A program made the position numbers and the translations under genes. A model generated the notes under the pieces. That model had not been told where the DNA came from, ran no database searches, and saw nothing but the letters and a program-made list of their open reading frames with translations. Below are positions 3,441 through 39,806 of a stretch of DNA of 42,961 bases, piece by piece; positions within the stretch are counted from its first letter, which is position 1; every line of letters begins with the position of its first letter. This DNA is from a virus: IMG/VR virus record IMGVR_UViG_3300023179_000198, positions 1 through 42,961 of that record; one strand, given 5' to 3'.

Positions 3441-3593
3441 ATGTGGTTGGAAAATAATTTTAAATCAATTATGAATGCTGGTCTAGCTTTGATAATAGGC
3501 TTAAGTGCTCTAGGTGCTAGGCAAACCCACAAAGAAATTAAGAAAGGTGAGGCACAATGGGTGCTTTGGAAGAAACATAAGAAAAATAAATGA
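3441..3593 (+). CDS. tiny membrane protein (inner-membrane spanin candidate)
   Basis: A 50-residue protein with one hydrophobic segment (about residues 10-27) followed by a strongly basic tail. Its stop overlaps the next start in an ATGA junction, so it is translationally coupled to the small lipoprotein. A short membrane protein overlapping a short lipoprotein is the classic layout of Rz/Rz1 spanins, but this pair is very small and lies 21 kb from the endolysin. A weak late-type AT stretch lies just upstream. Holin-like or unrelated membrane roles are also possible. Confidence 0.6.
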   Translation: MWLENNFKSIMNAGLALIIGLSALGARQTHKEIKKGEAQWVLWKKHKKNK

Positions 3594-3736
3594 AAAAAAT
3601 ATTAACAATATTAGTAATTGTATTTGTATTATCGTCTTGTAGGGATGAGAAAATGTGTGGTAATCATCAAGATACTATGAGTAAAGATTCTAACAACTAT
3701 CCGTGTTATAAAACATCAAAGACAATAAAATTTTAA
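3590..3736 (+). CDS. small lipoprotein (outer-membrane spanin candidate)
   Basis: A 48-residue protein with a basic N-terminus, a hydrophobic stretch and the lipobox LSSC, giving a lipid-modified cysteine at residue 17. The mature part is about 32 residues and has two more cysteines. The start overlaps the stop of the membrane protein before it (ATGA). The layout suggests an o-spanin; a superinfection-exclusion lipoprotein is the main alternative. The next gene follows after 6 nt. Confidence 0.65.
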   Translation: MKKILTILVIVFVLSSCRDEKMCGNHQDTMSKDSNNYPCYKTSKTIKF

Positions 3737-3742
3737 AACTAA

Positions 3743-4891
3743 ATGAAAAAAATTATAGCGCTGTTAATGCTTTTGGTCTCCTTAGCAACAGCAAATGCAA
3801 AATGTGATTGGTCTAAAGTAAGCTTGGGCAAATCTAACACATGTAATGCTTACAAGTTTGAGGTAACAGGAACGGTAGATACCTGTAATAAACATTCTAT
3901 TTTAATTGTTAAAAAAGGTTCTACAACTCCTTTATATACAGGAGATAACAGGGTGTTTAATTATATATTTAGTGATACTGGATATTATTTTGTTAAAGTT
4001 TCCATTAAAAACAGATGTTGTGGAGGTGATACTTTATTCTATGATTATATTCATGTTACTTGTAAACCAACAACAACCCCTAAATGTGATTGGAGCAGTT
4101 TGAGACTTCAACAATGGAATCAACGTAATACATACAGGTGGTACGTTAGTGGTAAAGCACTGGATGACACTTGTGTTGATTGGATGTTTATGGTTTATAA
4201 TGTTCAAACTAAGAAAGTGGACACAGTAGGGGACAATAAAGGTATTTGTGATGTCCAGTTTAATAAGAAAGGTAAATACAAAATGTATTTGAAAGTATGG
4301 AACAGATGCTTAAAGTGTGATACATCAATGATGCGTGAAGTGAATTTGATTTATTTTCCAAAATGTAGCTTTGTTTATGGTTTAAAAAGTAGTACTGGTA
4401 TGGGATGTGCTGATAGTATGGTTGGTGAAATGACTTTAGGTCCTTGGACTAAAGGTGATACTTGTTGGCAATGGTATTCCTATATTTGGAATGGACCAAT
4501 GTTGGATTCATTAAATCAACACGATTGGGATTCAATGAGTAATGACCAATTGTATATGTACTATGATTTTAATGATTCAGATTTGATTTGGATGAAAGGA
4601 CCAGGTAATGATGCTCGTAGGGTTGCTTTAAAATTCCCTCACGATGGACACTACTTGATTGCTACTCAATGGTATAACAAATGTTTAGACCAAGATACAT
4701 TCTTCTTCACTCGTATTACAATTGAAACATGTATGACTTCAGGTGTTAAGAATATAGTTAATGATAAAGACGTAAAAATTATTGGTTATTATGATATGAT
4801 TGGCCGTAAAGTTGATTATATGGAAATTGATAAACCATATGTTATTATTTATAGTAATGGTAAGCGTCAAAAAGTAATGCGAACAAAATAA
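3743..4891 (+). CDS. exported Cys-rich repeat protein with T9SS-like C-terminal tail
   Basis: A 382-residue protein with a clear signal peptide (KK then a hydrophobic core, cleavage near ANA-K). Three diverged Cys-rich, PKD-like beta-sandwich repeats follow, the first two opening with KCDWS and the third with KCSF. Repeats include paired cysteines and a GYYFV, GKYKM or GHYLI strand near the end. The last ~45 residues contain GYYDMIGRKV, a PYVIIYSNGK strand and a basic end. This is the layout of type A C-terminal sorting domains of T9SS cargo (YDLxGRxV, GxYIV, KxxxK). The protein therefore looks secreted or surface-attached through the host T9SS. It is unusual for a phage and may come from the host. 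A terminator follows. Structural use in the virion cannot be excluded. Confidence 0.7.
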   Translation: MKKIIALLMLLVSLATANAKCDWSKVSLGKSNTCNAYKFEVTGTVDTCNKHSILIVKKGSTTPLYTGDNRVFNYIFSDTGYYFVKVSIKNRCCGGDTLFYDYIHVTCKPTTTPKCDWSSLRLQQWNQRNTYRWYVSGKALDDTCVDWMFMVYNVQTKKVDTVGDNKGICDVQFNKKGKYKMYLKVWNRCLKCDTSMMREVNLIYFPKCSFVYGLKSSTGMGCADSMVGEMTLGPWTKGDTCWQWYSYIWNGPMLDSLNQHDWDSMSNDQLYMYYDFNDSDLIWMKGPGNDARRVALKFPHDGHYLIATQWYNKCLDQDTFFFTRITIETCMTSGVKNIVNDKDVKIIGYYDMIGRKVDYMEIDKPYVIIYSNGKRQKVMRTK

Positions 4892-6431: not shown

Positions 6432-7115
6432 ATGAAAACACTTATCATTTCAGACCTTCACATAGGGTCTAAAGGTTGTAAAACAGAGGAAATTTTAGAG
6501 TTATTAAAAGACGAGTCATTTGAACGTTATATTTTAGTAGGAGATATAATTGATGGTTGGTTATTTAAAAAATATAAGAAATTCTCTTACCAACATGCTA
6601 GAGTAATTAGGCGTTTATTAAAATTATCTAAAAATAAAGACATTATTTGGATATCAGGTAATCATGATGAATTTTTACGTAAATACACTCCTATTGAAAT
6701 AGGTAATATTAAAGTTGTAGATGAATTTATTGAAAATGGTGTTTGGTATTGTCATGGTGATAAGTTTGATGGTATTGTTAAGATGCGTTGGTTAGGAATG
6801 TTAGGTTCAATTGGTTATGATTTAGCTATTATGATTGATAGATTTTTAAAGCGTTTTAATAAGAAAACTAGTTTATCTAAATTTTTAAAGGATAATGTTA
6901 AGGCTGCTGTCTCGTTTATGGTTGATTTTGAAAATGAAATGGTTCGTCAAGCTAAAAAACGTAAATGTCACACTGTAGTTTGTGGTCATATTCATACCCC
7001 AGATTATAAAACTATTGATGGTGTTTATTATATAAATTGTGGTGATTGGGTAGAAAATTGTTCACACATTGTATTAGAAAATAATAAATTTAACTTATGT
7101 TATCAAAACAACTAA
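6432..7115 (+). CDS. LpxH-like metallophosphoesterase
   Basis: A 227-residue calcineurin-like phosphoesterase with the full set of metal ligands in order: SDLHIG (D8, H10), VGDIID (D38), SGNHDE (N77, H78), CHGDKFD (H108) and CGHIHTP (H186, H188), then NCGDWVE. The motif set and length resemble LpxH-type UDP-2,3-diacylglucosamine hydrolases, which make lipid X in lipid A synthesis at the inner membrane. The gene overlaps the next one, a glycosyltransferase, by 19 nt, so the pair looks like a lipid or envelope-modification cassette. A different nucleotide or phospholipid substrate remains possible. Confidence 0.8.
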   Translation: MKTLIISDLHIGSKGCKTEEILELLKDESFERYILVGDIIDGWLFKKYKKFSYQHARVIRRLLKLSKNKDIIWISGNHDEFLRKYTPIEIGNIKVVDEFIENGVWYCHGDKFDGIVKMRWLGMLGSIGYDLAIMIDRFLKRFNKKTSLSKFLKDNVKAAVSFMVDFENEMVRQAKKRKCHTVVCGHIHTPDYKTIDGVYYINCGDWVENCSHIVLENNKFNLCYQNN

Positions 7116-7813
7116 CTATTGTAATTCCAACTTACAATGAGGGTAAATACATTGCTCGAACATTGTATGCTATTGCTGCTCAATCTAAAACTAAAGGTAT
7201 TAAAATTATTATTGCTGATGCCAAATCAACTGATAATACTAGAACAATGGCTGAGACTAATGGGTTTGAATTAGGATTAAACTTAATGGTTATAGATGGT
7301 GGTTTACCTGCTGTAGGTAGGAATGCTGGGGCTAAATTAGCAACTACACCTTATGTTTTATTTTTAGATGCTGATGTTACTTTTACTCACAGACATGCTA
7401 TTAAAGAAGCGTTTGATGAGATAGCAACAGGTAAATACGAAATGGTAGCAACAACACCGGTTTATAAGGGTGAGTTAGACATTAGAGCATTCATTATGTT
7501 CGGTCTAAACAAGTATGTAACGTGGTTCCTATCTAAAACCGAACCATTTGCTATAGGTGGTTTTACAATGGTTAATAGACAAGTATTTAATAAATTAGGG
7601 GGTTATGATGAGAAAGCAAAACAAAGTGAGGATTGGTTATTAAGTAAAAAAATAAAACCTCATAACTTTAAACTAGTATCAGAATTAATCACTCAGGACA
7701 ATAGACGATTTAAGCGTTATGGTTATTTTAGTATGGTGAAATTATTATATAATAACTGGAGGAATCGTAATAATACTCAATATTTTTACGAGGATCAGGG
7801 TTATTGGAAATAA
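7097..7813 (+). CDS. family 2 glycosyltransferase
   Basis: A 238-residue GT-A fold enzyme. The N-terminal strand is TIVIPTYNEG, the metal and nucleotide-sugar DxD motif is FLDADV (D91, D93) and the acceptor-side motif is SEDW (E178, D179). No membrane segment is certain; the region near residues 131-147 is mildly hydrophobic and could touch the membrane. It starts inside the LpxH-like gene, so the two are coupled. It probably transfers a sugar to a lipid or polysaccharide of the host envelope, for example to change phage receptors; the acceptor is inference. Confidence 0.85.
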   Translation: MLSKQLTIVIPTYNEGKYIARTLYAIAAQSKTKGIKIIIADAKSTDNTRTMAETNGFELGLNLMVIDGGLPAVGRNAGAKLATTPYVLFLDADVTFTHRHAIKEAFDEIATGKYEMVATTPVYKGELDIRAFIMFGLNKYVTWFLSKTEPFAIGGFTMVNRQVFNKLGGYDEKAKQSEDWLLSKKIKPHNFKLVSELITQDNRRFKRYGYFSMVKLLYNNWRNRNNTQYFYEDQGYWK

Positions 7814-37400: not shown

Positions 37401-39806
37401 AATTATCAGTGGTTTGATTATATCAGATTAATTGAATTCTTTGATAACTCTTTATTTAAGATGTTACAAGACTTTATCCCAGCTAGATCTGATTTAGCTG
37501 CGGGTATTGTAGTTAAACAACACGTTTTAGAAAGAAATAAATATCCTGTTCCTCAGGTAACACTTACTGCCTCTTTAGCTAATGTTGCTTCGGGTTCAAC
37601 AAATATTCCTTATGTTGTTCAAGACCAGACTATTACAGCCTCAATTTTAATAGGAAACATTACTGGAAGTAATGGAGGTACAATGCCTAATTTGTTTGGT
37701 CAAACACAATCATTTAACTATTTTTCTAATATTACTCAAAGCTGGTCAGGTAGTAATTTAACCCCTTCAGGTTATGTAGGATATATTCATGATTCTCAAG
37801 ATGAATTCTTTAATGGAGAATTAAGTGGATCTGTATTAACTGTTACTACAGGATCATTAAGTGATTGTCAAGTTAAAATATATCAAGTATATACTACTAG
37901 TTCTATTAACGGACCGTTTACAGGAATAACTTTCTATTATTTCCCTGACTATGATTTTGAAACTGATAAAACTTATTATCTAACGTTTACTGAAGCTAAT
38001 GATGCTTTAGCTTTAGCTTCTGGATCAATTCAAATTACCGATTCATCTAACGTATCAGGAAACCAAAGAGTTATATATTCTGGAAGTGGAGATTTAGCTC
38101 CTGGTTCTTCTAGAACTATAAATAATTTAGAAGTTCAAGGAATTGTTCCTCCATTAATTTTCTCAAACAATAACGTTTTAGCATATCTTACAGTAACTGC
38201 CTTTACATCATCTGTTGCTTTTATAGACCAAGATTGTGAGGTTTTATCTGGAGATGCTCAAGTCCCAAGACAAAATTCTAAATATATGTTGGTAGATTTT
38301 AATAATAGTTTTATTACCGCATCAAATGAAGCCGCTATTTTGTCAGGATACGCTACTAAAGCAGCAGTACCTGATTCATACTATACATCAGCTCGCCAAA
38401 TTAATTCAAGATATATTGGTAAAGAATTAGTAGTTTCTAATCTAAATAAATGGACTGAAGGAGATATTTCTTATGGTAAATCAGTTACTGTAGGTAATCC
38501 TGAAGTTAATTTTGTATATTTTAATAGTGTAGGAAGTACATCACCAGAGTGGGGTAATAATATATCATCAAAAACACAAGCAAATATTAAATTAATAGTT
38601 GATTCTTCAGGAAGTGTTACTAAACCAATTAATGATGCTGAGGGAATTAATTTAGGAACTATCCAACAATCCTTTATTGATAGTGGAAACGCTACTTTAG
38701 TATTAGATGATTACGATACTTTTGGAGTTAATTTAAATAATTTAAATGGTACATGGCCCATATTTAAAAGTGGAATAAGCATAGCCCCTATTTTATATAC
38801 TCAAACTGCTAGCTATAATAATAACGGAGATATTATAGGATTTGGTTATACTGGATCTATTGTTTTCACTCAAGGACAACAAGGTGCCGATCCAACAAAA
38901 AATGATTATCAATTATTAACTTATGGAATTAATTTTAATGGTATACAACCATCAACACTTCCTAAAAAGATTGATTTTTCAGATCCTGTTATTTTAGGAC
39001 AATCCGCTAGTTTTGCTACATCATCTGATGCTTATGCTCCAATAGGGCCAATAACTAATTTATCAAGTTCTGGGTATGTATTAACTTTCCAAGCACATAT
39101 TGAAGCAGTTAATTTCTATGATGCTGTAGTAGATTATGTACTCCAGAAAAACGGAACTGAAGTAGCTAGAATCCAAATTAATCATACAGCAACTACAAAG
39201 GGTGATATTTACTATACGGAAGCTAATGCCACTACATCAGATTCATATACCGTAAAAGCAGTTGCTTACCGACCAACATATATTACTAATCCTGTTGTTT
39301 ATTTAAATGCTGCCTCTTATTTTAGAGTAACTCAATATCCATTACCTGGCTCAGGAATTTGTACTGCTTTTTGGTATACTAATTCTATTGCTCCTAATAT
39401 TTTAATAGCTAGTACAGCATCAAATGGTTTAAATCAATATGTAGGATCAAGACAACAAAGTATTGATAGAAGTGGATTTAATCCTATTTCTTTAGATTTT
39501 GATCCTCAACAATATGATGAGATTAGATTCCAAGGAATTGAGGATTTAGCTTATTCTATTATTAACATTACATCATCAAACGGTCAATTAAATTTACAAT
39601 TAGATAGAAATATACCTAATGGAACTAATTTAAGTTATTTCCTATTAAGAAGATATGTTGCTGATCCTTCAAATATTATTTTGGATTTAAACAAACCAGC
39701 AGGCGCAAGTAGTGGTGGTGTTTTAAAACCAGAATATGTAACAGACGAATTAAACAAAAATTTAGATACAATAGTTCAAAACTTAAAATCAAAAGGCCTA
39801 ATATAA
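34440..39806 (+). CDS. giant baseplate/tail protein with LamG insert
   Basis: A 1788-residue structural protein, the largest in the window. About residues 540-580 hold a conserved block (RIYNSVPYILKKKGSYAGL, ALINLFGVPD, ISEFGG) reminiscent of tail protein I and related baseplate proteins. A LamG-like domain follows at about 600-800 (EFRFKTDGL, SLWETDG, EIRYYTN). The rest is Ser/Thr/Asn/Tyr-rich beta sequence. Its place after gp6-like suggests the role of T4 gp7 or gp10, possibly with carbohydrate binding; this assignment is inference. Confidence 0.7.
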   Translation: MAEIININPINPFTFELQEYSVSDSSLITSFNIDTTFDPNIDYLEYFIYDLNGNVLIQNVSGYPGYKLIDNDVVLYPEVDLKAYGYTEGQYNTLYNFLTPKLGSNSFTTYYISEISSDRTEVRLDTTAIPNALVISSTTELINDITNSTGSYYDFYLNFGNNDLVIAVNALLDTTDPTNPTVLIKLYEPLPSQFNLQSQLWVVSQVSEPVAYNINIAQTFDVTSNNVQLRGPNTNISVKNQINNSTDYSSYQALSATTAKTGSNSLQYQLNNLLAQTGVSVNVDYSDYSNFIHFSNAQVRLENFYYKLSLIEQYSYSSSLSDNAPTNYYTSQSSVIYQSKIDTIITAFDNYEYYLYYNSGSTSWPKSNTAPPYVNVPTTSSAGLTWFASQSAVAEYYDSENNNALTLAIPSYLRDDDNNQQYILFIEMVGQLFDEVFVYLQGITDKANNDNRLTYGVSKDLVADVLRDLGIKIYQNNFSSNDLYQALIGITPSGSLYNLPFTTPTLPVPTGSGLEYIVSYVTASSTSSLVPTYDVNASVYKRIYNSVPYILKKKGSYAGLRALINLFGVPDTVLRISEFGGQNKINTNDYDYWYDQFNYAFYTSGSNYVTSSFSLNTAWASSNNVPQAVEFRFKTDGLPQNTASIASQSLWETDGLVKLVLKYTGSGYTSGSYSGSVVNPYNQYAKLDFSPDPTSPQTSASIYLPFYDGGWWSVLVNKEGTNYTLTAKNKIYIGDDGNFIGFQASSSVNPFTADPWNNSTKSYFGVSSSLSGKIFTGSLQEIRYYTNTLSQSNFNDYVMNPYAIDGNYVNSAPYVLVFRAPLGSDLITGSTTSIHPKITGSWVATSSFASNSSYYYKSTPAFENNTEVIFVNEFPAGIKNRISNKIQQQNIVLPYSSSDSNIPNADVLSPFRSIQQQSVLSGSYTKNINYVEIAFSPQNEINDDINEQLGYFNIGEYIGDPRLQSTTAESYPDLDALRDAYFTKYSSNYQWFDYIRLIEFFDNSLFKMLQDFIPARSDLAAGIVVKQHVLERNKYPVPQVTLTASLANVASGSTNIPYVVQDQTITASILIGNITGSNGGTMPNLFGQTQSFNYFSNITQSWSGSNLTPSGYVGYIHDSQDEFFNGELSGSVLTVTTGSLSDCQVKIYQVYTTSSINGPFTGITFYYFPDYDFETDKTYYLTFTEANDALALASGSIQITDSSNVSGNQRVIYSGSGDLAPGSSRTINNLEVQGIVPPLIFSNNNVLAYLTVTAFTSSVAFIDQDCEVLSGDAQVPRQNSKYMLVDFNNSFITASNEAAILSGYATKAAVPDSYYTSARQINSRYIGKELVVSNLNKWTEGDISYGKSVTVGNPEVNFVYFNSVGSTSPEWGNNISSKTQANIKLIVDSSGSVTKPINDAEGINLGTIQQSFIDSGNATLVLDDYDTFGVNLNNLNGTWPIFKSGISIAPILYTQTASYNNNGDIIGFGYTGSIVFTQGQQGADPTKNDYQLLTYGINFNGIQPSTLPKKIDFSDPVILGQSASFATSSDAYAPIGPITNLSSSGYVLTFQAHIEAVNFYDAVVDYVLQKNGTEVARIQINHTATTKGDIYYTEANATTSDSYTVKAVAYRPTYITNPVVYLNAASYFRVTQYPLPGSGICTAFWYTNSIAPNILIASTASNGLNQYVGSRQQSIDRSGFNPISLDFDPQQYDEIRFQGIEDLAYSIINITSSNGQLNLQLDRNIPNGTNLSYFLLRRYVADPSNIILDLNKPAGASSGGVLKPEYVTDELNKNLDTIVQNLKSKGLI

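Follow-up and report, generated by a model that had tools for sequence, protein, structure and literature searches.

Phage-encoded T9SS cargo is already known. For Cryophage, a phage of Bacteroidota, several of its proteins have been proposed as cargo of the host T9SS (Bellas et al. 2020, PMC7468147), and in crAss-like gut phages one BACON ORF as well as its neighbours bear T9SS sorting domains (PMC6949934). In the Cryophage cargo, the type A domains are annotated and belong to an endoglucanase, a GH39 protein and a PA14 protein, while the BACON proteins combine yet another passenger with a canonical annotation. Here, we studied P0001, a phage protein that differs from both in its passenger (Ig/PKD-like repeats) as well as in its C-terminus, which is a compact tail without annotation. 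We found no prior account of this tail in the literature searched, which covers few subscription journals. That is, phage T9SS cargo as such is not new, while the compact tail and its recurrent exchange between phages and hosts appear to be. We consider P0001 to be probably a surface protein acquired from the host and exported by the host T9SS via a compact, unrecognised sorting tail, as judged from comparative sequence data.

Architecture of P0001

The window, i.e., the whole stretch of DNA that was analysed, is a phage fragment of 42,961 bases from IMG/VR with genes for baseplate wedge, endolysin, tail-fibre-like and helicase-like proteins. Within the window, the P0001 gene (3743..4891, + strand, ATG start) encodes a putatively exported, Cys-rich and Ig/PKD-like protein of 382 aa. 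Its hydrophobic N-terminus, MKKIIALLMLLVSLATANA followed by KCDW, is signal-peptide-like by inspection and by a crude rule. The predicted Sec signal peptide spans residues 1-19 (3743..3799, + strand), within which AlphaFold places a helix (residues 2-17), and a similar start is seen in nearly all relatives. It is followed by three repeats on the same strand, namely repeat 1 (residues 20-113; 3800..4081), repeat 2 (residues 114-207; 4082..4363) and repeat 3 (residues 208-331; 4364..4735). An earlier note on this DNA had described a signal peptide and three Cys-rich PKD-like repeats, and both descriptions hold. With regard to the repeats, the Pfam PKD match is sub-threshold (E 0.13) and the predicted folds are Ig/FnIII-like: the AlphaFold model (34-member alignment) shows tandem domains of this type, and Foldseek matches them to tandem FnIII/Ig proteins (E ~1e-7), i.e., to an Ig/PKD-like beta-sandwich.

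The repeats have different closest relatives. Repeat 1 is 60% identical to its closest match, repeat 1 of the bacterial T9SS type A cargo protein L162, while its best phage match reaches only 41% identity. Repeat 2 shows 84% identity to phage protein L008 and repeat 3 86-89% to the phage proteins L001 and L003. Since repeat 1 is thus nearest to a bacterial sequence and repeats 2 and 3 are nearest to phages, the gene is, by these identities, mosaic, with some repeats phage-like and one bacterial-like. An HMM match of residues 2-51 to the Shiga toxin B subunit (18.9 bits vs. a cut-off of 203) covers mostly the signal peptide and was discarded as noise.

The C-terminal tail

Repeat 3 is followed by a flexible linker and the proposed T9SS sorting tail, a compact three-strand segment of residues ~341-382 (linker and tail together 4736..4888, + strand). 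The tail sequence of P0001 is KIIGYYDMIGRKVDYMEIDKPYVIIYSNGKRQKVMRTK and the consensus of compact tails reads YDMxGR...IYLYsdG..rK. In the AlphaFold model of P0001, a disordered linker (residues 333-340, pLDDT <50) leads into a confidently predicted three-strand mini-domain (~341-382), and a run with the tail only yields three strands again (pLDDT ~90). Foldseek found no significant structural relative of the tail model; the RemA CTD is matched at no better than E 3.6.

Profile searches gave a consistent picture. The TIGR04183 profile has no sorting-domain match over the whole record, and hmmscan of P0001 and of its last 51 residues against NCBIfam and Pfam reports no sorting domain, including TIGR04183 and NF033708. 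With curated cut-offs of 23 bits (TIGR04183) and 40 bits (NF033708), the best scores remain below threshold for both models: for TIGR04183, the best relative reaches 12.6 bits (E 0.1) and the best single tail E 0.026, while NF033708 is weakly matched by 2/19 tails (best E 0.069, far below the cut-off). Only three NCBIfam models are weakly matched by tails at all, and two of them are these T9SS sorting domains.

The earlier note had quoted the C-terminus as YDMIGRKV...PYVIIYSNGK, which is found exactly so, and had read it as the layout of a type A domain, to be supported by a significant Por_Secre_tail (TIGR04183) match and a seven-strand beta fold. This reading did not survive. Neither TIGR04183 nor Pfam gives such a match, AlphaFold predicts three strands, and no PNP motif of type A domains is present in the P0001 tail. 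The absent profile match and the differing C-terminal fold are also the two signs that the note had named as refuting its claim. Because of the missing TIGR04183/Pfam match and the three rather than seven strands, the tail is not a standard or recognised type A sorting domain. The note's broader proposal of phage-encoded T9SS cargo thus loses its recognised type A domain, while the proposal itself is supported by the comparative evidence given below.

Relation to type A and type C sorting domains

The compact tail shares several properties with type A domains (TIGR04183/PF18962), i.e., the C-terminal position on signal-peptide proteins, the (Y)D..GR..V motif, a later Tyr strand and a terminal K. 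Furthermore, both are found on the same passengers in the host family. In contrast, type A domains have a PNP motif, ~75 residues and seven strands, whereas the compact tail has ~40 residues, three strands and no PNP. With type C domains (NF033708, ChiA), which provide the best profile-profile match, it shares the pattern YD..GR...LLvkv.l.nG...KK, but it is shorter than the type C sorting domain.

Using hhalign, the joint profile of phage and bacterial compact tails aligns to type C with a score of 23.0 (E 2e-4), which is reached by 0/100 shuffles (maximum 9.3 for this alignment, 9-11 overall), and to type A with a score of 17.5 (E 0.002). For the phage tails alone, the alignment to canonical type A CTDs scores 10.3 (E 0.045) and is equalled by 1/100 shuffles, i.e., it is near noise. 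The type A and type C profiles match each other at E 1e-10. The compact tail hence looks like a remote, shortened relative of these domains that is tentatively nearest to type C and, judged by curated cut-offs, falls outside both; its greater proximity to C than to A is tentative because the type C set included some sub-cut-off sequences resembling type A. With regard to length, the last 22 residues of the type A CTD of HBP35 suffice for GFP secretion, and its terminal lysines matter (PMC10202324, review), which makes a 40-residue tail plausible as a T9SS signal.

Bacterial proteins with the compact tail

Our scan of bacterial genomes identified the P0001 homologues L062-L064 in three Bacteroidota MAGs from freshwater, with L064 being truncated at the end of its contig. 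Their flanks, if of sufficient length, hold surface, outer-membrane and T9SS-cargo genes, not phage genes. Chromosomal compact-tail homologues are present in G001, G002, G003, G337, G359 and G367, and variant tails in G344 and G350-G352; ten chromosomal proteins with the compact tail all come from one Bacteroidota family. In the family of G001, 56/70 genomes have a match to P0001. These matches comprise full-length compact-tail copies in several genomes as well as long multi-repeat proteins with canonical or type-A-like tails.

The latter are Cys-rich multi-repeat surface proteins (L162-L171) that have the repeats of P0001 but a C-terminus of the canonical type A or type-A-like kind. L162 itself ends in a type A CTD with 30.5 bits (cut-off 23), and the same pairing is observed for L163 (42.7 bits) and L170 (44.8 bits), with L166 being sub-threshold (17.7 bits). 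Judged by these alignments, the same passenger repeats occur with the canonical as well as with the compact tail. The compact tail, in turn, is also found on unrelated secreted bacterial proteins, namely CotH (L065, L067), LRR (L066, L082), GH16 (L117), esterase (L118) and BspA-LRR (L087) proteins. Among these, L065-L067 have no match to TIGR04183, and Pfam reports no sorting domain for L065, L117, L118 and L087 or for the further protein L116. The bacterial proteins L155-L158 show variant compact tails (LPKNQLLLFRYKxxxxQKVIIRE), which may form a bridge between the compact class and longer tails.

In a phylum-wide sample, convincing compact-tail matches are found in only ~4/296 genomes. Ordinary type A motifs account for most of the weak matches, and beyond a few lineages the compact tail is therefore rare. 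A proteobacterial candidate (L068/G007) was rejected as tail bearer, as it lacks SprA and TIGR04183 and its tail match is only at E 0.1. SprA is present in 16/16 tail-bearing genomes examined (ten of one family and six other Bacteroidota) and in 69/70 genomes of the family of G001; G001-G003 have 52-71 TIGR04183 matches per genome. The co-occurrence with SprA is consistent with T9SS but statistically weak on its own, because the base rate in the phylum is 228/296 and 10/16 tail-bearing genomes belong to one family.

The rarity of the tail could also be expected if it had nothing to do with T9SS, i.e., if the export of P0001 ended in the periplasm or at the inner side of the outer membrane, with the tail being a binding or anchoring module, e.g., for docking to a partner in the outer membrane or peptidoglycan. 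That no curated T9SS model matches the tail and that its three-strand fold differs from type A fits this explanation as well. We nevertheless consider it rather unlikely, given that homologous passengers bear canonical CTDs at the equivalent position, that type C is matched by the profile of the tail, and that GH16, CotH and esterase proteins, which are secreted, bear the tail as well. A T9SS-recognised tail remains our preferred reading. We are evenly divided about a more general claim, namely that the compact tail constitutes a separate, unnamed class of T9SS sorting signals: a three-strand mini-domain of ~40 residues that would keep only the last type A/C motifs, would serve Bacteroidota as the signal of diverse secreted proteins and would be spread by phages via exchange with their hosts.

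Phage family and exchange with hosts

The phage family was collected from IMG/VR by searching twice with the tail and once with the whole protein. Relatives of P0001 are encoded on 39 other phage contigs, which results in ~33 distinct sequences including that of the window and one tail fragment; no relative was found among INPHARED phages. All full-length phage members combine a signal-peptide-like start, one to three Cys-containing repeats and the compact tail. The aligned tails share an invariant Gly, Tyr and Lys, and since ~33 different phage sequences as well as many sequences from bacteria end in the tail, its conservation is, at the level of these alignments, far from chance. The tail of L009 is 59% identical to that of P0001, while none of the L009 repeats matches at 1e-4; tail and passenger are therefore separable.

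One contig (L055/G394) ends with a tail fragment of the family (60 residues, around positions 37873-38046 of that contig) and also encodes a 1514-aa protein with a C-terminus resembling a gliding-type (type B) sorting domain. This record may be bacterial or the edge of a prophage.

Independent evidence that such phages carry T9SS cargo comes from the sister phage records, 6/27 of which also encode a protein of ~600-650 aa with an above-cut-off type A CTD. In the sister records, L203-L207 (five records) form a second phage family of ~640 aa proteins that are cohesin/dockerin-like by eye and have canonical, above-cut-off type A tails. L202 is another phage type A cargo protein with a passenger unlike that of L203-L207.

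A tree computed from the last 200 residues places nine bacterial copies among 32 phage copies, and its well-supported branches force at least two changes between phage and bacterium, without giving their direction. For instance, the bacterial L154 is sister to the phage protein L020 (support 100/96). A bacterial origin of the gene is favoured by the comparison of sequences, because the repeats are spread more widely in the bacterial family of G001. Based on shared genes, the host of the window's phage is assigned to aquatic Bacteroidota.

Genomic neighbourhood and possible role

The genes of P0002, P0003, P0004 and the lipoprotein described below are on the + strand. Upstream of P0001, the window encodes a Laminin_G_3 repeat protein that is virion- or tail-fibre-like (P0003; 95..2317), a membrane-anchored SGNH/GDSL hydrolase (P0002; 2630..3427; PF13472 with 35 bits, cut-off 32.9) and, directly adjacent to P0001, a small predicted lipoprotein with a VLSSC lipobox (3590..3736). 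Downstream, P0004 (4967..5389) is a conserved neighbour to which no function is assigned; 5 related contigs have it close to the family gene. For the P0002-type hydrolase gene, such proximity is seen in 16/39 other contigs. The SGNH hydrolase, the lipoprotein and the tail-fibre-like gene upstream of P0001 look like a cassette for altering the surface. Close to it, a GtrB-like glycosyltransferase (7097-7813) is a further possible surface-modifying gene of the phage.

Phage particles commonly bear Ig-like domains. Together with the neighbouring Laminin_G_3 gene, this would suit P0001 as a component of the virion, e.g., an Ig-like decoration or a tail-fibre accessory protein. However, nearly all members have an N-terminal signal peptide, chromosomal homologues adjoin outer-membrane and T9SS-cargo genes, and the Cys-rich repeats belong to host surface proteins, such that we regard a virion component as very unlikely. 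We find it hardly credible that P0001 is a decaying or neutral host gene without function in infection, for despite its clear relationship to host genes ~32 divergent copies in phages are intact, and in 16 contigs the same SGNH hydrolase gene is nearby.

Under our preferred reading, i.e., a host-acquired protein secreted via T9SS, P0001 would be made after infection and exported by Sec to the periplasm. Here, the host T9SS would recognise the compact tail of ~40 residues in place of a sorting domain of ~75 residues, and P0001 would cross the outer membrane. The Ig/PKD-like repeats would then be exposed at the surface of the infected cell or be released from it, and exposed repeats would adjoin the products of the linked SGNH hydrolase and lipoprotein genes and might help to alter the cell surface. 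With regard to the benefit for the phage, our first guess is altered adhesion or attachment, or superinfection exclusion. If the tail does function as a signal for T9SS, it is a small natural secretion signal, and which part of a sorting domain is read by T9SS becomes directly testable. It would also extend the secreted proteins of Bacteroidota by a class that escapes standard annotation, and it would imply that the exchange of surface proteins between phages and their hosts is recurrent and that phages rely on the host's secretion route during infection.

Finally, the window holds 7 tRNA genes according to ARAGORN. An additional Rfam tRNA call (16608-16722, 44 bits), which is absent from the ARAGORN output, covers 115 bases, i.e., ~40 above normal, and may contain an intron or insertion near the anticodon.
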